From positions 1-20,302 of IMG/VR virus record IMGVR_UViG_3300025886_000202: a stretch of DNA of 20,302 nucleotides. One strand, written 5' to 3'. Source of the DNA: a virus. The position numbers and the translations under genes are program-made. Below, piece after piece: positions 2,464 to 20,187 of this stretch. Below the pieces are notes generated by a model. That model did not search any database, was not told the DNA's origin, and saw only the letters and a list, made by a program, of their open reading frames with translations. Position 1 is the stretch's first letter. Every line of letters starts with the position of its first letter.

Positions 2464-2481
2464 GTCGTTTTCCCGTTCCTT

Positions 2482-2503
2482 TGTTCACTCTATAGCAGAT
2501 TAA
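2482..2503 (-). promoter_or_regulatory. Possible phage-type promoter before the tail fibre gene
   Basis: The 46-base gap upstream of the fibre reads TTAATCTGCTATAGAGTGAA on the minus strand. The CTATAG core followed by purines resembles the initiation part of T7 and SP6 class promoters, and T7 also has a promoter just before gene 17. The upstream recognition part does not match T7 at the right spacing. CTATAG also occurs by chance inside genes in this window, so this is a weak call based on position. Confidence 0.2.
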
Positions 2504-2509
2504 TTCCAT

Positions 2510-4984
2510 TTACTCAAACACGTTTGACAGCTCTGGGGTTCTTTCGGGAAGGATGTCTCCCTGTGACCACCAGTATTTCTGACCGTATTGCGTTCTATAT
2601 TTGCTTGCGTTTCTACGCATCTTTGTGCGCGTATCAGAATCGACCCACAGTTTGCCCTGGTCAATAACCAATCTTTCAAGCCCAAGTCGTGCATACCATA
2701 AGCTAGATCCAGGGGTATATCGTCCGGCAAATCCTAGAAACTCACTAGCAGCATTACTGTCTTTACCTTGTGCGGCCTGTAGTATGTTGCCTACTGTTAG
2801 CTGAGAAACATCGTTTGCAAATCCTACTACGGGACCGGCAATGGTTTCAGCCAAACCGCCACCATACCTATTGACACTGCCAAACATAAAGTCGCCATAG
2901 ATACCGAGGCCACCACCCTGCATGAAAGCAGCGCCCCAAAACTCAGCGGTATTCATTGGCCGTGGGTCTCTACCCTTTGCCATTTCCTTTAGCTGCATCG
3001 CAAGAGCGCCCATAAGCGTTGTGCTTATCATTAGATCTGCAAAGTAAGCACCCTTCCCTCTGCCGGTAGGCTGGGCCAAGCCGCGCATGATGTGTGTATT
3101 TACCAGGGTAACACCAAAATTCTTATACATTGCAAAGGACCGTGTAAGCTCACCGGCTAATGTCCCAGGTTTGGCATCACCTGTGATCGCCACACGCCCA
3201 CGGAGAGAGCTACTAGGGACAGCAAAGTTAGTTTCTGTGTCAATCATTACAGATAGGTTTGTTGCTAAATCACGGGCCAGCTCTGGGTTTATATCGGTGC
3301 GAGCCTCGATGTCTTCAGCCCTTATGAACTTAGCCCCTTCGTAATCATACAAAGGCGTCTTCCGAATGATCTCCCACTTATCAGCCCCAATATTATAATG
3401 CTCCATGCTTTTCTGCATATTTGCAGGAAGATCCTTAAACTGTAAATTAACATTGTCAGCTAAGAATCCGAGGTACTCCATACCGAAAGACCATCTACCC
3501 GCCTGCGTCCACGGAGAAAGCAATGAAGCTCTCATAACAAAATCAGATATGCGCCTGGTAACTTCTGGCCCTGATATCTCCCCTACATACCGCATTTGCC
3601 CAGCAGCTAAGGTGGACCAGCCTTCAGCAGTAAGACCTAACCTAATTGCTGCGCGGCCCTTTTCCTCAAGAGAAAGCGGGTTCATAAACTCTAAATACTT
3701 TGAAATCATCTTAGTTTGGGGAAGGCCATTCATTGTCCTGGCTATCCGCCCAAAATTAGTATCGGTTATAGCGGCAATAGCTGCGCTACCAAGCTGGGCA
3801 GAGTGCAGAACATTCCTTGTGCCAGCCATAGTTGTCGCCAATACGCCGTCCACCGGTGCATTGTTTGTCCCTACCGTGGCTGAATACAGATCATCGAGAA
3901 ACGCATTTGCTTTTGATGCACTATTAATCTGCTTTGCGTCACCAGATAGACTGGCTTCCTTCGTAAGGGTGTCTTTCATAAATCGCAAAGTGGTCTTTGG
4001 ATCTGGACCCATCACCTCCATCAACGCAATGTCTCTGGACATATTATCGATATGGGCCATCATAACATCGAAAGCATTGGGATTTCCAAACGCCTCTTGG
4101 TACTTCATCCAGTTGTCAGCATCTTTAAATACAAGGAAGCGATGGTCCTGATGTCGTGAAGCAAAAGATTGATTGCCGGCAAAGCTCCCAGGTTTGTTTT
4201 TATTCTGACCGTTTGTCCGTATCGTTTCAAAAACATCCTCCAAAACAAGCTCAAGCTTTTGCTTAGAAAATGGCAGTCCCGTTTGCTCATCAATCATTTT
4301 ATTAACATCAAGCTTTGGAAGGATCGTATCTCGCCACGAAGTAAATCCAGCAGCAGCAACCGCAACAGAGTTATGGAATTGAGGCATACCCCAATCCTTG
4401 CGTTTCGGTATAGCACCACCAGCAGCGTTAAACCTTAACCTTAAATATTCAGCAGCTTCGGCCCAAGCTTCAGCCATTTGTCGCGCCGAAATATCATCGG
4501 TCGATCCTGGCTTGAATATCTCACTGATAACATTTTCTAACCTTGCCTTTTCCCGAGTCTCGCCAATAATGTTTCTTTTAAATGTTCCAAGAAACTGATC
4601 CATTTTTGCTGTGGCTCTGGATCGGACTGCGCTTTGCACCTGGGCGACACTGTTAAAACGAGATGTTACAGATTGCTCAAAAACATCAAACGTAGCTTTG
4701 TATTTATTTTGTTCGCCTGTAACAGCCGTTACGAATGTATCCATGTGCATTCGTATTTTTGTCCAGGTCTTAGCCTGTAACATTGCGCGGCGCTTCTTTT
4801 CCTTAGACATTTTCTTTATAGCCGCAGATGTATCTAAAGCAGCCTTAGAGCTGGCAGCAGCAAAACCCATTTGCTTGTTATACTGAACCTCAAGATCCCC
4901 AAAAAGGGTTTTGATCTCTTCAGCCTTTTCAGAAGAAAGCTCACCGGCAGCAACACCATCGTCAATACATTTTCTAAAACTCAT
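2510..4984 (-). CDS. Large internal virion protein, probable distal half of the gp16-type ejection protein
   Basis: An 824-residue protein whose ATG overlaps the stop of the preceding gene (ATGA, 4981-4984), so translation is probably coupled. It is mostly helical with many small residues. Residues 689-699 (QGGGLGIYGDF) and 758-772 (PGSSLWYARLGLERL), plus the C terminus at 791-824 (RNASKYRTQYGQKYWW, then ILPERTP), fit a C-terminal pattern I know from very large internal proteins of podoviruses and prophages. Residues about 655-675 are hydrophobic (STTLMGALAMQL). In T7 the cognate position is held by a single 1318-residue gp16, which leaves the head with the DNA and forms part of the channel through the envelope. 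Here that role seems shared with the 1305-residue neighbour. No enzymatic motif is visible. The family call is by context and C-terminal pattern. Confidence 0.65.
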   Translation of the reverse strand: MSFRKCIDDGVAAGELSSEKAEEIKTLFGDLEVQYNKQMGFAAASSKAALDTSAAIKKMSKEKKRRAMLQAKTWTKIRMHMDTFVTAVTGEQNKYKATFDVFEQSVTSRFNSVAQVQSAVRSRATAKMDQFLGTFKRNIIGETREKARLENVISEIFKPGSTDDISARQMAEAWAEAAEYLRLRFNAAGGAIPKRKDWGMPQFHNSVAVAAAGFTSWRDTILPKLDVNKMIDEQTGLPFSKQKLELVLEDVFETIRTNGQNKNKPGSFAGNQSFASRHQDHRFLVFKDADNWMKYQEAFGNPNAFDVMMAHIDNMSRDIALMEVMGPDPKTTLRFMKDTLTKEASLSGDAKQINSASKANAFLDDLYSATVGTNNAPVDGVLATTMAGTRNVLHSAQLGSAAIAAITDTNFGRIARTMNGLPQTKMISKYLEFMNPLSLEEKGRAAIRLGLTAEGWSTLAAGQMRYVGEISGPEVTRRISDFVMRASLLSPWTQAGRWSFGMEYLGFLADNVNLQFKDLPANMQKSMEHYNIGADKWEIIRKTPLYDYEGAKFIRAEDIEARTDINPELARDLATNLSVMIDTETNFAVPSSSLRGRVAITGDAKPGTLAGELTRSFAMYKNFGVTLVNTHIMRGLAQPTGRGKGAYFADLMISTTLMGALAMQLKEMAKGRDPRPMNTAEFWGAAFMQGGGLGIYGDFMFGSVNRYGGGLAETIAGPVVGFANDVSQLTVGNILQAAQGKDSNAASEFLGFAGRYTPGSSLWYARLGLERLVIDQGKLWVDSDTRTKMRRNASKYRTQYGQKYWWSQGDILPERTPELSNVFE

Positions 4985-7900
4985 ATCGTACAGAACTCCA
5001 ACCGTTTCATTACAGCGTCTTCTTCATCCATCATGGCACGAAGGTCTTTTATAGGCATTGAAACAGCCTCAAGCTCATTAGTATCTGGATTGAGCCTTTG
5101 ACCTACAGGAACTTCAAGATCCATATTGACATTTGCCGAAGCGATATCTAAATTGGAATCGGAGGTATCATCCATGAAATTATTTAGGTTCGACTTCGGC
5201 TCTATTGCAGCCATCGAAGGTCCACTTGGCATGATCTGGGATACAGAGGACGGTTGGTCTCCTGTAGGTGGTTCCAAGGAACTAGCTCGCGCTGTAGTAA
5301 CAGACGAAGGCTCTGAAGAAATCCCAGAGGACAAAGTTGAGTCTACACTGCTGGCGCGTGGCGCTCCTATCCCAAGCTTTTGAGCAAATGATTGGTCTAG
5401 CGTAGACGTAACAGCCCCATAGATCTCTATCATTTTTTGATTAGCGTCTGCTATTTCAACATCAGTTGAGTCTACACTTCTTAATATTTCATAGTAATCG
5501 TGACCAGATTTTTCAAAAAGTGTTGGATTTTCTTTTGCGTTGAGCATTCCAGGAGGCCAGATTTGAATTTCTCCTAATGACTTATCATCAAAGATAACCA
5601 TTATTTTTCTGTCAACGTATCCAGCCGGAGTAATTTTCCATCCCTCATCTACAAGATGAAATTTCTTAGACATGGCTTTAACAAAAGCGTCTGCCTCTTC
5701 TATAGTTGCTGCATTGATGCCAGTTCTGGCCGCATCAGTTAATCTGTTATATTTTCCGTTGTATTTGTCTCTAACTTTTTCTTCTATTCGTTTGAGTTTT
5801 TTGACCTTTGCTGGTTCAAATTCGATCCCCAAATCAGCAGCAGCTTGAGCCGCTGCTTTGTTCAGAGTTTCGTTGTTCTTTTTGGCTTTGCGGAATAACC
5901 CTAAACCCGTCTTAAACCTTTGACGTTCCAATAGTTTTTGAACAAAAATGTCAGCCTCATCTTGCCCAAGAGTCTCTGCAACGACATAGCGCATTTTATT
6001 TTTACCAAGCGCGTCTTGGTTTAGAATGCGATCTGCCGCTTTGCGAGATAACTCAGAAGCGTACTGAGCATCATCAATTATTTTGCCAGGCACTTCAGAC
6101 CAGCCTGCAGCTTTTGCAATTGAGTATGTAGAATTGCCATCTCGAACTGAGAAAGTTCCGTCACCATTATCTCTAAGAAGTAATGACCCGCGTTTTGGTA
6201 TTTCATTGTTTGCAGATTGAACCATGTAGCCAAGAGAGTTTACAACCCCTTTAGCCCTTACATTGACCGGAACAATGTCTTTCATAGCAACAAGAGTGTC
6301 GCCAGCTTCCATAGCCATATATGGTTGCCAATCTGGCTGGATCTTATCTTGCACCTCCTGAAGCGCGGATTGCATTTCAAGATCTGCCTGCGCCACCGCT
6401 GCTGGTGGCGTATCCACCTCATCAGCACCAAACATATCCGTTATAAGCTGACCGGTCTGTTGATCCGAGGCTGGCCCTGTAGGCTCATCAAATCCGTCTA
6501 GGATTGGCTCTTCAATTGAAGGTCGCGTGACCTCCGCTGTACCATCGATGCCGCGTCCAATGTCGCCAGCAGATATGCTTTGGAAATCGCCTGCGTCAAT
6601 TGATCGTCTGACAGCATCAAGGAATCCGTTTGTGGCTGGGCCATAGCTTCCTGTGTCCCTTGCTGTCTTTGCTGCATCATTGAGGGCGTCCGAGAGCGGC
6701 CCTTTGCGGTTTGCAAGCGCTTGGAGGAGCGTGATCGTTTGGGCATCTGTAGCCGCCTTTCTTTGATTTGCATCAGCCGCAAGGATGTTTCCTTCAGCCT
6801 CTAACCTTTCAGCGTTTCTTACAAGTGTTTCAAACGCAGCTTTATCTCTGCGCAACTCTTTATAAGCTCTGTCCAGAATTTTACCACGCTCGAAATAATA
6901 ACTCTCTGTCATTAGCTCTTCGCCAAACAAAGATATTTGAGTTACTTGCTCCGAAGGGGTTTCTTTTACCTGGCGAACTATAGCCTCAGCTTGGAATTTG
7001 TTTTCTGGGTTAGCTTTGGCAAGCACACTCATTGCTGCGTCTTGCAAGTCCTGATCGTCAATTAACCTACCTACAAATGCCGCATACTTAGCCGGTACAA
7101 CCCCGTTTACAACCATGCCAAATGAATTGTCACTTAAAGGCATTATGCCTCTAGCTTGCTGCACAAGCTCTGAATTTGGTGGCAAATCTGGAAGCCTAGA
7201 AGGATCTACACGCAAGACCTTTGCAGCATCAATTGCTGTACCGCTTCCCTCTACTATGTTTTTCAAAGCAGCGACCACGCGCATTTCTTCTGGCGTGATA
7301 CCGTCTACTTCTCTAAATGTGTATGCGTGTAGACTGATATCCTGAGACGGATCTTGAGCCATAATACGTTTAGCTAGTCCAAGGCGTTGGTGTCCATCTG
7401 CAATAACCTTTCGACCATCTGCATATTCATAAACACTAACAGTGCCAGCCCAATATGGGTTGAATGTCTGGACCCCTTGCAATCTTGCAGTAACGCCAAA
7501 CTCATCACCCTCTGCTTTGAATTGGAATGTTTCTGCATCAACGCCAATCTCAGAAGCCTTCACCATAGATATAAGGTTTACACCTTCAAGATTATTAACA
7601 TCCGCTACAACAGGGGAAGTCTTAGCCGCCTGTTTTTGTTTGTCTAAAATCTTTCCACGCTGTTTGCCTAGTCCATCTTGTATAGATTGTAACTCCTCAA
7701 CTTTAGACTGATTTAGTTTATTTTCAGATATTATATCTTTTATTATCTTACTGTCCTTTGTAAGACTTGGATCAGCATCATAAGCATCATTTAACCGATT
7801 TTGAATTTCAAGACCTTCTGCTTCAGCCGTTTTTAATTTGGCATTGTTTGCTTCCCATTTTTTATCCAATGCGTTTAATTCATCTCGTAATGGATCAACA

Positions 7901-8898
7901 GATTTTAAAGGCAATGGAGCATCTGGAGACATAGCCGGTGGCTGTGCATTGGCCGCAGCAGCACCAGCTTCAACTAACCTTTGGTTATGAACGTATTGAG
8001 CTTCATTAGGTGTGGCTGATTGAAGTGGGTTTTCTATCTCTTCAAACTCTTCAGCTTCTAATAGTGCCGCAGCCATTTCACGATTTTCTAATGTGCCGCG
8101 CTGGTTGTTGCCAGTTAGAGCTAAGTACCCTCTCCTTAATTGATTAGCTGTTAGTTTTACGCCAGCACCAGCAAGGGGGAGAGCTGCACCCAAGGCAGCG
8201 TTTTCAGAAACATTACGCACAAAGTCAGAAAACTCATAATCAACGTCAAGCTCATCATACCATTCTTTAACTGCAATCTCAGAAAAAGCACCAGCTCCAC
8301 CATTTAAAACAGCAGAGTTAAATAGTTGCCGCCACATGGTTCTGCCAATGGCAACAGCGCCCTCCAGCATCATAGCTTGCTGAGTAACTGGATCGCTAAA
8401 TGATGCAACCATGCCACCTAAGAATCTAGCAACAGCATATTTAAACTCAGGATTATCATCGGCAAGTCTTTGCATCTCTGCGCGAGATCTTGTAAATAAT
8501 TCCTTAGTTTGGTTTTGAATAAAATTTTCATTTACCTGGTTTAAATCAGGCGGTAGATCATATTGGTTCTGCCTGATGGTAGAGAAGATCTTTTCAATCG
8601 CATTATTGTAAGCCGTTTCAGACTTATACTGTCCAGTAGTCGGCGCAGATATTAGATATCGAGCAGGGTTAGTCCATCTCTCGCCGTTATTTAGAAACTC
8701 AGTTTCATTAAGCGATTCAATTATAGGATCCCAAACTTCTTGCTTGGCAAAAGCAGGGGAATTAGCGCCAGCACTGTCATTTATAAAACCTAAGTCCTTA
8801 GTCTTTACAAAATTCTCAGCCCATGTAGCAGCAGGAGCTGACATCTTCCTTCTTGGGTCAGAATTTAAAAACTTTATATCTGCTTTTCCAAGGTTCAT
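4981..8898 (-). CDS. Giant internal virion protein (gp16 position) with ParB-like and RelA/SpoT-like domains
   Basis: A 1305-residue protein, ATGA-overlapped at both ends with the gp15-like gene and the 824-residue gene, so it belongs to the ejection-protein set. Residues 1-260 form a helical N-terminal region with Gly/Ala-rich stretches (VASFSDPV, ALPLAGAGV). Residues about 330-425 are predicted coiled coil by composition. Residues about 445-575 look like a ParB/DdrB-type domain: GVQTFNPYW, then KVIADGHQRLGLAKR (497-511), then NIVEGSGTAIDAAKVLR (547-563). A helical segment follows at about 660-765. Residues about 1035-1145 carry RelA/SpoT-like signatures: RLTDAARTG, GYVD, GEIQIWPPGM and GHDYYEILRS. 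Residues 1180-1240 are a Ser/Pro-rich linker. No lytic transglycosylase motif is visible, unlike T7 gp16. Internal virion protein status is inferred from gene order. Domain calls are by motif and could be degenerate folds. Confidence 0.75.
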   Translation of the reverse strand: MNLGKADIKFLNSDPRRKMSAPAATWAENFVKTKDLGFINDSAGANSPAFAKQEVWDPIIESLNETEFLNNGERWTNPARYLISAPTTGQYKSETAYNNAIEKIFSTIRQNQYDLPPDLNQVNENFIQNQTKELFTRSRAEMQRLADDNPEFKYAVARFLGGMVASFSDPVTQQAMMLEGAVAIGRTMWRQLFNSAVLNGGAGAFSEIAVKEWYDELDVDYEFSDFVRNVSENAALGAALPLAGAGVKLTANQLRRGYLALTGNNQRGTLENREMAAALLEAEEFEEIENPLQSATPNEAQYVHNQRLVEAGAAAANAQPPAMSPDAPLPLKSVDPLRDELNALDKKWEANNAKLKTAEAEGLEIQNRLNDAYDADPSLTKDSKIIKDIISENKLNQSKVEELQSIQDGLGKQRGKILDKQKQAAKTSPVVADVNNLEGVNLISMVKASEIGVDAETFQFKAEGDEFGVTARLQGVQTFNPYWAGTVSVYEYADGRKVIADGHQRLGLAKRIMAQDPSQDISLHAYTFREVDGITPEEMRVVAALKNIVEGSGTAIDAAKVLRVDPSRLPDLPPNSELVQQARGIMPLSDNSFGMVVNGVVPAKYAAFVGRLIDDQDLQDAAMSVLAKANPENKFQAEAIVRQVKETPSEQVTQISLFGEELMTESYYFERGKILDRAYKELRRDKAAFETLVRNAERLEAEGNILAADANQRKAATDAQTITLLQALANRKGPLSDALNDAAKTARDTGSYGPATNGFLDAVRRSIDAGDFQSISAGDIGRGIDGTAEVTRPSIEEPILDGFDEPTGPASDQQTGQLITDMFGADEVDTPPAAVAQADLEMQSALQEVQDKIQPDWQPYMAMEAGDTLVAMKDIVPVNVRAKGVVNSLGYMVQSANNEIPKRGSLLLRDNGDGTFSVRDGNSTYSIAKAAGWSEVPGKIIDDAQYASELSRKAADRILNQDALGKNKMRYVVAETLGQDEADIFVQKLLERQRFKTGLGLFRKAKKNNETLNKAAAQAAADLGIEFEPAKVKKLKRIEEKVRDKYNGKYNRLTDAARTGINAATIEEADAFVKAMSKKFHLVDEGWKITPAGYVDRKIMVIFDDKSLGEIQIWPPGMLNAKENPTLFEKSGHDYYEILRSVDSTDVEIADANQKMIEIYGAVTSTLDQSFAQKLGIGAPRASSVDSTLSSGISSEPSSVTTARASSLEPPTGDQPSSVSQIMPSGPSMAAIEPKSNLNNFMDDTSDSNLDIASANVNMDLEVPVGQRLNPDTNELEAVSMPIKDLRAMMDEEDAVMKRLEFCTI

Positions 8899-11534
8899 TT
8901 AAAATCTTTCTCCACAGTCCTTAGCTCTTCCACGGAAACTTTTTCTGAATCAAACGCACGTTTAATAAAGGCGCTAAGGTATTTGTGTTCGGTTGTTCCC
9001 GGATCAAATTGTTCCCGTACCTCAATTAATCTAGTTTGGATCGCCTCTCTTTCATCAAGCTCACTTACAGCCGCAGCACCAGCAGCCGGGGCTTCAGATA
9101 CAGCTTCAGCAACGTCTGATACGGTTTCTGCAAGAGATGTTGTCGCAGATACGATAGTCGATGGTATTACACCGATGCCTGGGGCAGCCATTTTCTCCAG
9201 CAATGTTTCTGGAATAATTCCTTGACCCACATCCTTCTGAGCATCAAACGCATCTTTCTGATCCTGCGTATAATAAACCGGACCACGGGCGGCAGTAAGT
9301 TCAATTACCTTTTTTAGGTCAAAAACAAACATGTCCCCATTGTCATCGTTAATGAAGTCACCACTGTCTTTATACATAAATCCGTAGTTGTTACCTCCCA
9401 AAGAGACAAGATTGTAATCTCCAGAAGTACCCTCGCTTTTTATTACCTGATATATTTTAGCTCCAGGATCAACTAGAGACAACTCGATCTCACCTGACAA
9501 AGCCTCAAACATCTCAGGAGCTACATTTTGATAAACGATCTCCCCATCTACCTCAAATCCCGAGGCTTGCGAAAGTATATCTGCGTCCATTTCTGTCAAA
9601 GCATTTGACACATCAAGAGCAGTATTCCCGCTAGGAATAAGGGTTGAAACAGACCTTACTGTATCGATACCACCCGTTCCATTCTCAGGATTAAATCCAA
9701 CAGCCTGGTTTAAAGAATTTCTCCAAAGTTCTTCATTGAACTCAGTAGCGCCTTCCGCATAAAAAGCATACAGATTTTCAGCCATTGCTCTGTAAGCCGG
9801 TACAGCATCCAGGGTTTCACCGAATACAGATCTAAAGACCGCATTTGAAATTGAATCTGCGTCCGGCATATCCTTGTCTGATGTCAGCTTAGGCTTACCC
9901 ATTGCCTCAATAATAGCTTGGCCCTGTAGCGCACGGGTGGCAACATCTCTGTTTCCAGAAACCATTGAAGCCCCTACGGCAGCATAAAACGCTCCATCTG
10001 TACCGGCCAGCTCTTCAAAGGCTTGAAGCGCGATAGTATCCCCACTGGCAACAACAGATTCCAAAGCAATCAACCTATCGTTTATAGACGCAGATTTAAG
10101 AACATTAGAGAACAATTTGGTTTCCTCTTTAGTAAATAAAGTAAGAGGTGTCCCATATGCTTTAGAGACTAGCTTCGCCTGGTCAAACCTTAAACTAAGA
10201 TCTGCGACCACAGCATTTGGATCTTGGTTAAAGTCAATTGGCTTAATTTGGATTAAGTTATTATTATCATCGGTAAGTTGCCTTTTAACAGCAGCGGAAA
10301 TCGGATTGTCGTTTATGTCTTTATTAAACTGATCCAACATTTTAACAGCAAAATCATACGTTTTGACTTCTACATCCGTGTCCCGACCAGGCTCACCAAC
10401 GCCAGGAAGACCAGCTTCCATTGAGGTAACAAAACTAGCTAAATCAGCAGGCATCATGGCTTTGAGATTATTAGCAGTATCAATATCAAAAATCATGCGC
10501 TCATAAGCAGCTCTTGCTCTATCGCCTTCTGGCCCAAAAGCATCAAGTTGAGCTTCTATCTGTGTTAGCATTTTCTGAGAAACGACACCCCCAGCAATAG
10601 CAATATCATCTTGCTCACTAATCAATGAAACAACATTTGAAACTTTTTGCTCTCTAATCGCTGCGTTTTTGCTGTATGTTCCCTGGAGGCTTTTTCTAAA
10701 AGATTGCGTTTCTGCTAAAGTCATACCGGGGGCCGGAACTGTCTCCATTCTTTTTAAGATTGTTTCTTGCTTTTCAACCGGAGAAGAATTGAAATTAAAT
10801 ATGTAGTTTTCTTTTATAGCGTCATTGTAAGCTTTAGTTTCAAAAGCTTTGAGCTGTTTTTCCGAAAGTGATAAGCCGCCTAAAAGCTCAACAGATTTAG
10901 CAATTTGTTGTTTGATCGTTACAGCGTTTGAACCTGGAAGGATCGCGTTCTCGATAATATTGTTATATTGCAGATCCGCCGCGTTAGCTGCCTTCACCTT
11001 TTGCTTTTGAGCTTGTACGTTTACATACCAATTTGAATATCTTTCTGTTGCCTTGGCTGTTACGCCGTTTAGGTTTTCTCTCAAAACGGTTGCAGCAGTC
11101 GGATCAATTACTCTCAGCGATTCTGAGTAACCGTCAGTAAGTTCTAATAGTTGTGCTTGAACTTTCGTAAATGGAGTTTCATCCCTTTCGGCTTCATTCA
11201 AAATCCGCATTGTTTCAATTTCAGCGGTATTTTGTATTTCGGCTACAGCAACACGACTTCCAAGTGCATATGCTGCACGTTCTGCTATTGTAGTAGGTCC
11301 ACCGGCTTCATCTAATGCGGCCAGGGTAGGCAAAGCACCTTCTTCGCGCACACGCTCCTGCCCACGGATTTCCGCTGCCTGAGAAGCCTGCCTGAAAGCA
11401 AAGTCGGACATACGATCAACTTGCTGAGAAATAGTCTGGCCCAACCTTGCCTGTTCGCGCGTAGCGGCAAAATCCATCTGCTGTGGTTGACGGGTCTGTA
11501 GACCGGTGCGCTGATATCTTGGAAGGATTGCCAT
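8895..11534 (-). CDS. Internal virion protein, gp15-like
   Basis: An 879-residue, largely helical protein; T7 gp15 is 747 residues. In T7, gp15 joins gp14 and gp16 in the internal core and is ejected to build the periplasmic part of the DNA channel. The N terminus (MAILPRYQRTGLQ, then Gln/Arg/Ala-rich helices such as QARLGQTISQQVDR) and long charged helices are typical of this class. Residues 788-830 form an Ala/Ser/Glu-rich linker (SLAETVSDVAEAVSEAPAAG) before a final helical piece. I see no catalytic motif. The start lies 8 bases after the stop of the gp14-like gene, with AGGTTAGAAC before the ATG. The end overlaps the next ATG by four bases. The assignment rests on position, length and composition, because gp15 sequences diverge strongly. 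Confidence 0.7.
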   Translation of the reverse strand: MAILPRYQRTGLQTRQPQQMDFAATREQARLGQTISQQVDRMSDFAFRQASQAAEIRGQERVREEGALPTLAALDEAGGPTTIAERAAYALGSRVAVAEIQNTAEIETMRILNEAERDETPFTKVQAQLLELTDGYSESLRVIDPTAATVLRENLNGVTAKATERYSNWYVNVQAQKQKVKAANAADLQYNNIIENAILPGSNAVTIKQQIAKSVELLGGLSLSEKQLKAFETKAYNDAIKENYIFNFNSSPVEKQETILKRMETVPAPGMTLAETQSFRKSLQGTYSKNAAIREQKVSNVVSLISEQDDIAIAGGVVSQKMLTQIEAQLDAFGPEGDRARAAYERMIFDIDTANNLKAMMPADLASFVTSMEAGLPGVGEPGRDTDVEVKTYDFAVKMLDQFNKDINDNPISAAVKRQLTDDNNNLIQIKPIDFNQDPNAVVADLSLRFDQAKLVSKAYGTPLTLFTKEETKLFSNVLKSASINDRLIALESVVASGDTIALQAFEELAGTDGAFYAAVGASMVSGNRDVATRALQGQAIIEAMGKPKLTSDKDMPDADSISNAVFRSVFGETLDAVPAYRAMAENLYAFYAEGATEFNEELWRNSLNQAVGFNPENGTGGIDTVRSVSTLIPSGNTALDVSNALTEMDADILSQASGFEVDGEIVYQNVAPEMFEALSGEIELSLVDPGAKIYQVIKSEGTSGDYNLVSLGGNNYGFMYKDSGDFINDDNGDMFVFDLKKVIELTAARGPVYYTQDQKDAFDAQKDVGQGIIPETLLEKMAAPGIGVIPSTIVSATTSLAETVSDVAEAVSEAPAAGAAAVSELDEREAIQTRLIEVREQFDPGTTEHKYLSAFIKRAFDSEKVSVEELRTVEKDFK

Positions 11535-11542
11535 GTTCTAAC

Positions 11543-11998
11543 CTATGCTAATTGTCCGTACCGATATGCACCTTGGCCGAGAGTACCGGCGGCGGATACA
11601 TAAGAAGATAACTGCGCTGTGCGACCAGCGGATTGATAAATTGCGGCCTGAGTGCTTGCCTGGCCGAGAGCCATAATAGCGTTGTCTTGAGCAATTTGTT
11701 TCTCTCTAGCGCCCTCAGACAAAGCAAACATCTGCATGGTTGCCGCCGATCCAGATGTAGGATCAACACCACCGGCAGCAGATCGAGATATAACTGCAGC
11801 AAGCGTTTCATTTAGATTGCGCAAAGCATCAGCCCCCTGCTGCTTATAGGCAATGGCCTCAGAACGGCCACGAAGCTCTGCTTGCTCTGCTTGCATTTGG
11901 TATTGACGCTTTTGAGCAGCCCCCGCAGAAATTTGACCAAGAGCTGAAACTCCTGCTGAAAATAACTGGAAACCACCCGTTGCCATTAAACCAGACAT
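11543..11998 (-). CDS. Internal virion protein B, gp14-like
   Basis: A 151-residue protein, shorter than T7 gp14 (196). In T7, gp14 is ejected first and forms the pore in the outer membrane. The N terminus has a Gly/Ala-rich hydrophobic stretch (GGFQLFSAGVSALGQISAG), followed by a Gln/Ala/Arg helical middle (QKRQYQMQAEQAELRGRSEA). A motif common in this family follows near residue 72 (RSAAGGVDPTSGSA), and a second hydrophobic segment lies near the C terminus (SSYVSAAGTLGQGAY). This layout fits other podovirus gp14-type proteins. The ATG follows the tail tubular B stop by one base, and GGGGAATTGAT serves as ribosome binding site inside the end of that gene. Confidence 0.8.
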   Translation of the reverse strand: MSGLMATGGFQLFSAGVSALGQISAGAAQKRQYQMQAEQAELRGRSEAIAYKQQGADALRNLNETLAAVISRSAAGGVDPTSGSAATMQMFALSEGAREKQIAQDNAIMALGQASTQAAIYQSAGRTAQLSSYVSAAGTLGQGAYRYGQLA

Positions 11999-15122: not shown

Positions 15123-15956
15123 TTATTCAGTGCAAGAAATTTTGACAATGCCTTCGCCGTCAATTGAGACGGAACCAGCAGAGAACATGGAGCTAACCAA
15201 GAACGATGTCTTTTCTGGGACATAGTTGACTTCGGTTTTCTGAGCCATCGACTCAGCATAGCCCATCGAATCTTTGTGCCAGGCAAAGCAAGTACGAGTA
15301 GAAGGCTTAGGAATACCGCCTTCGTCACGGTCGCCCATTGTCAAGATGTTGAAGCCCATGAATGTGTTGATCTCACCTTGGACAAGAGCTTTGACAGAAG
15401 CAAAGTCTTGGCTTGTGATTTCAGTTTCACCGAGCAAAGCATCTAGCTGAGAAGCGTGCATGAGCAAGTTACGGCCTTCAGAAGGTACGTTCTTCTCATT
15501 CATAGCTTTCGCAGTAGCGCGGAGCTTTTCGATGTTCATGTTTGTGCCAGCACCACCGATTGTTGTTGCAACAGTAGATGTGCCAGTGGCCGCGTTCAGA
15601 GCATCGATCATGATCTGGTCCATGCGACGAGCAATAGACTTAGATACAACCTGTACCAATTCAGAACGCTCATCAAAGTTGATGTGGGACTGTTGGAAGA
15701 TGTCTGAGTATTCTGCTGCAATGTAGTCTTCCATTGTCGCAGTTACTTGGCCGTATGTGACGTTAAGTGGAGTAACATCGGTTTGTGGTACGCGGAGCGT
15801 GGCTACACCTTTACCGATTGTTGGGAACTTAACAGTATTACCGGCAACGCCGGTGCGGGTCCGCATTGTGCCACGAAGCACAGATTCGGCTTGATACGCT
15901 TGTTTGACCTCAGAATCGAAAAGATCAACAAACGCGGTTGAGACGTTAATCGCCAT
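15123..15956 (-). CDS. Major capsid protein (HK97-fold)
   Basis: A 277-residue shell protein. The frame is open upstream to a TTG at 15983. I chose the ATG at 15956 because GGAGG lies nine bases before it and the product then begins MAINVSTAFVDLFDSEVK, a typical start for this capsid family. Features seen include YQAESVLRGTMRTRTG (21-36), a VTPLNVTYGQVTATMEDY stretch (61-78), HINFDERSELV, and the helix ARRMDQIMIDALNAATG (109-125) followed by Gly-rich strands. These resemble capsid proteins of the Bordetella phage BPP-1 (Bbp17) kind more than T7 gp10. The neighbours (scaffold upstream, decoration protein downstream) agree. The strong ribosome site and structured leader suggest heavy expression. 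A cysteine near the end (ISCTE) is present. Confidence 0.9.
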   Translation of the reverse strand: MAINVSTAFVDLFDSEVKQAYQAESVLRGTMRTRTGVAGNTVKFPTIGKGVATLRVPQTDVTPLNVTYGQVTATMEDYIAAEYSDIFQQSHINFDERSELVQVVSKSIARRMDQIMIDALNAATGTSTVATTIGGAGTNMNIEKLRATAKAMNEKNVPSEGRNLLMHASQLDALLGETEITSQDFASVKALVQGEINTFMGFNILTMGDRDEGGIPKPSTRTCFAWHKDSMGYAESMAQKTEVNYVPEKTSFLVSSMFSAGSVSIDGEGIVKISCTE

Positions 15957-15991
15957 TTGCAAAAACCTCCTTTTGCGTTTCAATTAAACGC
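15957..15991 (-). promoter_or_regulatory. Strong Shine-Dalgarno of the capsid gene with an adjacent hairpin
   Basis: On the minus strand AAAGGAGGT (core GGAGG at 15966-15970) lies nine bases before the capsid ATG, near-perfect complementarity to the 16S rRNA end. Immediately upstream, GCGTTT and AAACGC (15975-15991) form a six-base-pair stem with a five-base loop. The stem leaves the ribosome site open and may keep it accessible or stabilise the message 5' end. Confidence 0.7.
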
Positions 15992-19707: not shown

Positions 19708-20187
19708 TTAAAACCTCACCATCATGTAGTAGTCAGACCCATCCGGTCCGTACTTTCTCATAATACTTTCTACCTCGAAACGTAGTGCCTTGGCAAACCT
19801 AAATGCGGTATCGTTATTCGTGTTTACGCAGATCTGTAGCCTTTTTATGCCGTTATTAGCTATTGCGGTATCGGTTAGCTGCTTAGAAGCCCGTATAACC
19901 GATATCGCATGGCGCTCAATCTCTTTGCCGGGGATCAGCCACATCTCTGCAACCCCATCCCAAAAGGGGCGAATGCCAAACGCACAGACAACCTTACCTC
20001 TCCCGATGCCAGACCAGCTCATCCCGTCTACGGCGTGATCCCAGACATAGTTAATGTAGTTAGGTATCACGTTAGCAAAATCTTTGTTCTCTTCTTTAAG
20101 GTTTATTCTGGCTAAATGATCGTAGGTCAGCGGGACGATATGCTCATCGTGGCCCATTCTTACCTGGGGCAGTTGGACTAAAGCCAT
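19708..20187 (-). CDS. GNAT-fold phage protein, T7 gp13-like (DUF2833 type)
   Basis: A 159-residue protein. Residues 64-86 (GKVVCAFGIRPFWDGVAEMW and on to LIPG) fit the central strands of the acetyltransferase fold, 89-112 the long helix, and 116-145 (RLQICVNTNNDTAFRFAKAL, then FEVESIMRKYGPDG) the late strands with the usual A-x-R-x-A-x-x-L-x-F element. The acetyl-CoA loop R/Q-x-x-G-x-G/A is not visible, so activity is doubtful. T7 gp13, needed for virion morphogenesis, belongs to a family with this fold (DUF2833), but it lies after gp12 in T7 and here lies before the portal. The start shares one base with the previous stop (TAATG). Confidence 0.75.
   Translation of the reverse strand: MALVQLPQVRMGHDEHIVPLTYDHLARINLKEENKDFANVIPNYINYVWDHAVDGMSWSGIGRGKVVCAFGIRPFWDGVAEMWLIPGKEIERHAISVIRASKQLTDTAIANNGIKRLQICVNTNNDTAFRFAKALRFEVESIMRKYGPDGSDYYMMVRF

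Follow-up and report, generated by a model that had tools for sequence, protein, structure and literature searches.

A protein in the T7 gp16 position with a predicted ParB-like core and an exchangeable enzyme cassette suggests that T7-like phages may inject poisons into the host along with their DNA

What does a ParB-like motif block do inside a large protein encoded at the position of T7 gp16? The block lies in a 20,302-nucleotide stretch of viral DNA from IMG/VR, referred to here as the window. The original prediction had placed it at 7174-7566, as residues of about 445-575 of a 1305-residue protein, and this location, on the minus strand, is exact. The FNPYW, GRKVIADGHQRLGLAKR and NIVEGSGTAIDAAKVLR elements are all present as described, with DGHQR at residues 501-505. 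The reading that we regard as probable is that the protein is an ejected polyvalent carrier in the gp16 slot, with a ParB-like core that holds DNA and an effector cassette that can be exchanged. The carrier gene, its parts and its closest virion-gene neighbors are as follows.

4981..8898, minus strand: carrier gene P0001, 1305 aa, occupying the T7 gp16 position, with a 4-nt overlap with the next gene
7909..8898, minus strand: N-terminal carrier region, aa 1-330, kept in carriers of differing cassettes
7597..7908, minus strand: charged linker, aa 331-434, a blastn gap at gene nt 991-1304
7246..7578, minus strand: predicted ParB-like N-domain, aa ~441-551, with DGHQR 501-505 and N547 (AlphaFold2 model, VIA, residue conservation)
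6955..7242, minus strand: HTH-like helical domain, aa ~553-648 (VIA match to the Spo0J/Noc DNA-binding domain)
6439..6897, minus strand: remaining conserved core, aa ~668-820, long helices after a beta hairpin ('Q.sLFGeE') (alignments, model)
5177..6418, minus strand: swappable cassette, aa ~827-1241 (DNA comparison with sister phage L004)
5941..6348, minus strand: possible second ParB-like domain, 'DGNSTY' at aa 920-925 (weak PF02195 and Noc matches)
5377..5919, minus strand: predicted SYNTH (alarmone-synthetase) domain, aa ~994-1174 (PDB profile, AlphaFold2, Foldseek, VIA)
4984..5175, minus strand: conserved C-terminal tail, aa 1242-1305 (tail profile)
8895..11534, minus strand: P0002, gp15-like internal virion protein (phrog_992, E=1.8e-17)
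11543..11998, minus strand: gp14-like internal virion protein (phrog_418, E=1.2e-9)
2510..4984, minus strand: P0003, virion structural protein (phrog_684, E=1.7e-175)

The carrier gene belongs to a T7-like late cluster with the order connector (PF12236), scaffold (PF05396), capsid (PF19821), two tail-tube genes, gp14-like and gp15-like genes, P0001, the phrog_684 virion protein gene and a tail-fibre gene. This arrangement is widely kept: a gp15-like gene lies upstream of the carrier in 133 of 151 testable loci, and a phrog_684 gene lies downstream in 126 of 130 tests. The position supports the assignment of P0001 as an ejected internal virion protein, and from synteny alone we infer that it is packaged and delivered into the host. 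The internal virion proteins of P-SCSP1a were likewise inferred by their authors only from gene size and position (PMC9860041). The T7-like make-up suggests that these phages are virulent, the window being a 20-kb fragment.

An alternative is that the enzyme cassette works late in the producing cell, by shutting down metabolism or excluding a second phage, without ejection. The cassette is encoded among late structural genes, and action in the producing cell is known for toxSAS enzymes and for alarmone synthetases of prophages. However, the cassette is not a free protein but is embedded between the conserved core and tail of a protein in a structural position, and carriers without a cassette leave the gene position unchanged. 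Late action is thus unlikely. The ejected-carrier reading has its own difficulty, in that a very toxic late protein might need a neighboring immunity gene. The carrier and phrog_684 genes usually overlap by 4 nt, and therefore there is usually no adjoining immunity gene; no gene lies between P0001 and P0003 in the window. Virulent phages would need no lasting immunity. In a Methylobacterium prophage, a 90-residue acidic open reading frame (L068:8113-8382) sits directly behind a carrier with a SYNTH cassette. It is an immunity-gene candidate without a Pfam match, at a place where viral carriers usually have none.

The series FNPYW, DGHQR and NIVEGSGTAIDAAK within residues 445-575 is part of a conserved module of about 370 residues (aa ~445-820). 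The block is not a chance occurrence: all 162 homologous open reading frames share G, H and R at these places in DGHxR, as well as the KNIxEG asparagine (N547), and the D and Q of DGHQR are identical in 160 of the 162. A first search yielded 46 IMG/VR loci. A profile search then gave at least 465 IMG/VR contigs, of which 80 were kept, as well as 32 contigs from bacterial genomes, most of them alphaproteobacterial. In annotated phages, similarity to P0001 is limited to the module at aa ~445-800. It occurs in Ruegeria phage 45A6, Dunaliella viridis virus SI2, Prochlorococcus phages P-SCSP1 and an uncultured autographivirus, in each case in a protein labelled 'hypothetical protein'. Positions 997-1322 of the 1362-position phrog_21 profile ('portal protein') also match P0001 residues 421-743 (window 6670-7638), that is, the ParB-like core, and the portal label probably stems from a fusion or mis-annotation.

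A ParB-like fold had been proposed for this block, and the predicted structure agrees with it. The AlphaFold2 model of the core, built from 37 sequences, is of medium confidence (mean pLDDT 75, pTM 0.56). The first 15 Foldseek matches to this model are all ParB, Noc or Spo0J structures (7nfu, E=7e-4, probability 1.0), and VIA-align gives a Z of 10.2 to ParB-CDP (7bnk). The N-domain alone aligns with ParB 7bm8 over 93 residues (Z 9.6, rmsd 2.5 Å). Residues ~553-648 align with Spo0J/Noc DNA-binding domains at Z 9.2 (4umk) and 8.1 (6y93), values that helical domains can reach by chance. With the core model, sulfiredoxins rank behind the ParB-type structures (VIA Z 6-7). The nearest relatives in BFVD include phage proteins annotated as 'large polyvalent protein associated domain-containing' and phage Spo0J/ParB proteins. 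Residues ~441-648 are thus closest to ParB/Noc in the model, and the core is predicted to be a member of the ParB/sulfiredoxin superfamily with the alpha+beta ParB N-domain fold and a GxxR-type pocket. Profile searches of Pfam and the PDB gave no match to the core, and the ParB Pfam models had no acceptable match in the window or in 40 homologous domains.

In CTP-dependent ParB proteins, the GERR (P-motif) and ENxxR motifs contact CTP. Neither is present as such in the core, which has DGHQR and K546-N547 instead, with the N invariant. The ParB CTPase residues are kept only in part. A second ParB-like domain is possible at aa ~870-960, where the evidence consists of weak matches to PF02195 (best E=0.0048, in 3 of 7 homologues) and Noc (E=0.004); this segment compares with the core at 1% in hhalign. 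It belongs to the long form of the SYNTH cassette, and its DGNSTY sequence is invariant.

The more specific assignment to the DdrB type found no support. PF18763, which detects P1 DdrB at 6e-42, is silent in the window and in the 40 homologous domains, and hhalign of the core to P1 DdrB gives 0.9%, a comparison made with a single DdrB sequence; a search for further relatives returned mostly near-copies. The suggestion that the domain is a nuclease is not supported either: no nuclease signature was found, and the nearest solved structures are CTP-switch ParB and Noc proteins. These results bear on the alternative that the effector role belongs to the ParB-like domain, which would be a DNase of the DdrB type that is delivered with the genome and attacks host DNA or defence. 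Nuclease-active ParB/Srx domains are cited for polyvalent proteins (PMC5512222), and the pocket residue R505 is invariant among core homologues. Nevertheless, PF18763 is unmatched in every homologue tested, the predicted architecture is that of ParB with an HTH-like domain, and variation is found in the cassettes but not in the core, a pattern that fits a carrier rather better than an arms-race effector. A DNase role is quite unlikely, and the swappable enzyme cassette is a better candidate for action on the host than the ParB-like core.

Among homologues, the N-terminal region and core are conserved, the next segment is variable, and the short C-terminal tail is conserved again; this tail of about 60 residues is common to carriers with different cassettes or none. 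The clearest case is the sister phage L004, whose core DNA is 95% identical to that of P0001 and whose cassette is different. In blastn, identity between the two genes is 87% for nt 1-990 and 95% for nt 1305-2480; nt 2481-3722 contain no alignable DNA, after which identity is again 87% as far as the stop codon and 89% in the next kilobases. DNA identity downstream of the core is lost only across nt 2481-3722, and therefore window 5177-6418 (minus strand) is an exchanged cassette of about 1.2 kb. The charged linker is missing in two near-identical carriers, L003 and L004. Four cassette types occur among 124 homologues. A tree of the core with 122 rows requires at least 34 changes of cassette state, with 4 the minimum possible, and the clade of four that contains P0001 already has two cassette types.

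The P0001 cassette type has no Pfam match by itself. A 12-sequence cassette profile matches Tas1 (6ox6) in the PDB with E=1.2e-22 over ~190 residues, followed by SaEAS and GTP pyrophosphokinases (E 0.05-0.09). In the AlphaFold2 model of the cassette, pLDDT is mostly about 90 over aa ~990-1170. Foldseek again ranks Tas1 first (E=8.6e-7), before SAS and Rel proteins, and VIA aligns the model with 6ox6 over 170 residues (Z 13.3, 3.3 Å, 24% identity). All of the best 26 VIA rows are alarmone or tRNA pyrophosphokinases. The cassette is thus predicted to have the SYNTH fold, with Tas1 as its nearest relative. The candidate catalytic residues D1055, R1058, Y1094, E1110 and Q1112 are each kept in 31-36 of 36 SYNTH cassettes (D1055 and R1058 in 36, E1110 in 35, Y1094 in 34). 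Presumably D1055 and E1110 bind metal and Y1094 stacks on the base, as in Rel/SAS enzymes. The acceptor-site motif Syn3 of the P0001-type cassette is DxK. This motif is GxN in characterised (p)ppApp synthetases and SxH in (p)ppGpp synthetases (PMC12226406). Since DxK is neither, the product cannot be named with confidence.

Other carriers bear different enzymes. Two sister cassettes match Pfam Zeta_toxin (L036, 4.9e-34; L005, 1.3e-17), and another matches RelA_SpoT (L037, 1.6e-13). Every one of the 30 zeta cassettes, 27 of them viral and 3 bacterial, has a Walker A motif. A fourth type (L002, L004 and L007) is filed as a putative divergent SYNTH relative because it aligns with the P0001 type at 95% in hhalign; with the RelA_SpoT-matching cassettes it reaches 7.8%. 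Counted as distinct complete carriers in viral contigs, the census comprises 83 carriers: 41 with SYNTH-type cassettes (30 of the P0001 type, 8 divergent and 3 RelA/SpoT), 27 with zeta cassettes and 15 without a cassette. No further cassette kind was found among these complete carriers. Bacterial contigs hold eight more carriers, whose C-terminal parts are longer and either of another kind or unassigned. Although 15 of the 83 lack a cassette and Syn3 is non-canonical, it is very unlikely that the cassettes have decayed or are remnants with a structural role only, on a carrier that is DNA-ejection machinery alone, given almost invariant catalytic residues in 36 distant SYNTH cassettes, Walker A in every zeta cassette and repeated swapping between enzymes of two superfamilies.

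According to the ejected-carrier reading, P0001 would be a compact phage-type polyvalent protein in the T7 gp16 slot. Its constant parts (N-terminal region, ParB-like core and C-terminal tail) would be packaged and ejected with the genome. The core may bind the incoming DNA or clamp it, perhaps by way of a nucleotide switch, and the exchangeable effector cassette would travel between core and tail. The P0001 effector is a putative SYNTH-fold pyrophosphokinase related to Tas1 that would act in the host cytoplasm, with ATP as the donor of the pyrophosphate group. The acceptor is most likely an adenine nucleotide, with GTP or tRNA as possible alternatives. Early in infection, such an enzyme would deplete the pool of nucleotides and cripple the metabolism or defences of the host, to the presumed benefit of the phage. 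The zeta-toxin-type kinase cassettes of sister phages would instead hit cell-wall precursors. It is also conceivable, though doubtful, that a ParB-type nucleotide-gated clamp in a T7-like podovirus ejectosome both grips the entering DNA and imports a poison swapped between two enzyme kinds (alarmone synthetase-like and zeta-type kinase), immunity-free because the phages are virulent.

The T7 gp16 protein is ejected, and its C-terminal part enters the cytoplasm, where it binds DNA; this part is believed to act as a clamp on the genome at around 850 bp (PMC8954989). P0001 resembles it in gene position between gp15-like and fibre genes, with one extra structural gene (P0003) before the fibre, in size (1305 and 1318 residues) and in a central part predicted to bind DNA. 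Unlike gp16, P0001 has an additional enzyme cassette, and it lacks a sequence match to gp16 and a transglycosylase domain. The core is also comparable to the CTP-dependent ParB/Noc clamps in its predicted N-domain and possibly in a DNA-binding domain, and N547 stands at the place of the ENxxR asparagine. However, it has DGHxR for GERR and K for E before N547. We know of no parS for the P0001 core.

P0001 is also like phage-type polyvalent proteins, including P1 DdrB: a large multidomain protein beside virion genes, it joins several effector or DNA domains, a ParB-like one among them. This kind of protein is already known, because RelA/SpoT and DdrB-ParB occur among phage polyvalent domains and zeta-like kinases are fused to MuF (Iyer et al., 2017; PMC5512222). 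Ruegeria phage 45A6 and a number of bacterial contigs encode this core within proteins of ~2,600-3,900 residues, which add helicase, methylase, GNAT, LPD38, ART-PolyVal or InPase domains, all hallmarks of polyvalent proteins (PMC5512222). Unlike the polyvalent proteins of Iyer et al., P0001 has no PF18763 match and no metallopeptidase was found in it; it is compact, is encoded in an ejection cluster of the T7 type and has a single exchangeable cassette flanked by a constant tail.

A similar enzyme, the Apk2 adenosine 3'-pyrophosphokinase, is part of MuF proteins in temperate phages (PMC12226406). MuF polymorphic toxins are likewise virion-associated carriers of variable toxin domains, one of them a SYNTH (p)ppApp synthetase (PMC12226406), an association that P0001 would share judging by its gene position. 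Nevertheless, the P0001 cassette is internal and not C-terminal, and both marks of Apk enzymes, GxN at Syn3 and adjacent immunity genes, are missing, the former replaced by DxK. No MuF domain was found by Pfam in P0001 or in its N-terminal region. Tas1, which makes (p)ppApp and drains ATP (PMC8118318), is a type VI (p)ppApp synthetase (Tas1/Apk1, 6ox6) and the cassette's best profile and structural match. The two differ in the proposed delivery route and in the acceptor motif, and no Tis1-like partner was seen for P0001.

No report of a T7-type ejection protein with toxin cassettes was found in open-access papers, which does not by itself prove novelty. By that literature, the new elements are the placement in an ejection slot of the T7 type, a ParB-like core that is not of the DdrB kind and has an HTH-like part, and restricted cassette exchange within a single protein. 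If the reading is correct, the DNA-delivery machine of a widespread T7-like group would double as a toxin-delivery device with exchangeable warheads that, from the first minute, target nucleotide metabolism or the precursors of the cell wall. The principle of polymorphic toxins, familiar from the MuF proteins that temperate phages encode, would then extend to podovirus ejection proteins. If a ParB-like switch acts here, the long-standing question of how gp16-position proteins hold the first entering DNA would become testable.

The N-terminal region (aa 1-330) has no Pfam match, hydropathy reveals no clear transmembrane segment in P0001, and neither the proteins P0001, P0002 and P0003 nor the core profile had a meaningful sequence match in the PDB; an enoyl-CoA hydratase match was rejected as weak. 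PADLOC, run on P0001 and three sister cassettes, gave nothing beyond a weak match of the RSH cassette. A GNAT domain suspected by eye in L026 had no Pfam match. On an alphaproteobacterial contig (L060:4756-12984), the carrier and a phrog_684-like protein form one open reading frame with an ART-PolyVal domain between them. Elsewhere in the window, the open reading frame upstream of the connector (19708-20187) matches phrog_4177 (7.9e-19), phrog_308 'internal virion protein' (1.8e-9) and, weakly, a GNAT-like phrog, and is possibly a T7 gp13-like protein or an acetyltransferase relative. The capsid gene (15123-15983) is of the Phage_capsid_2/P22-coat type (PF19821, 2e-69; PF11651, 1.5e-4) with TTG as its listed start. 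The tail-fibre protein (1-2463) has long Ala/Thr/Glu-rich and NVNT/INTN-type repeats.
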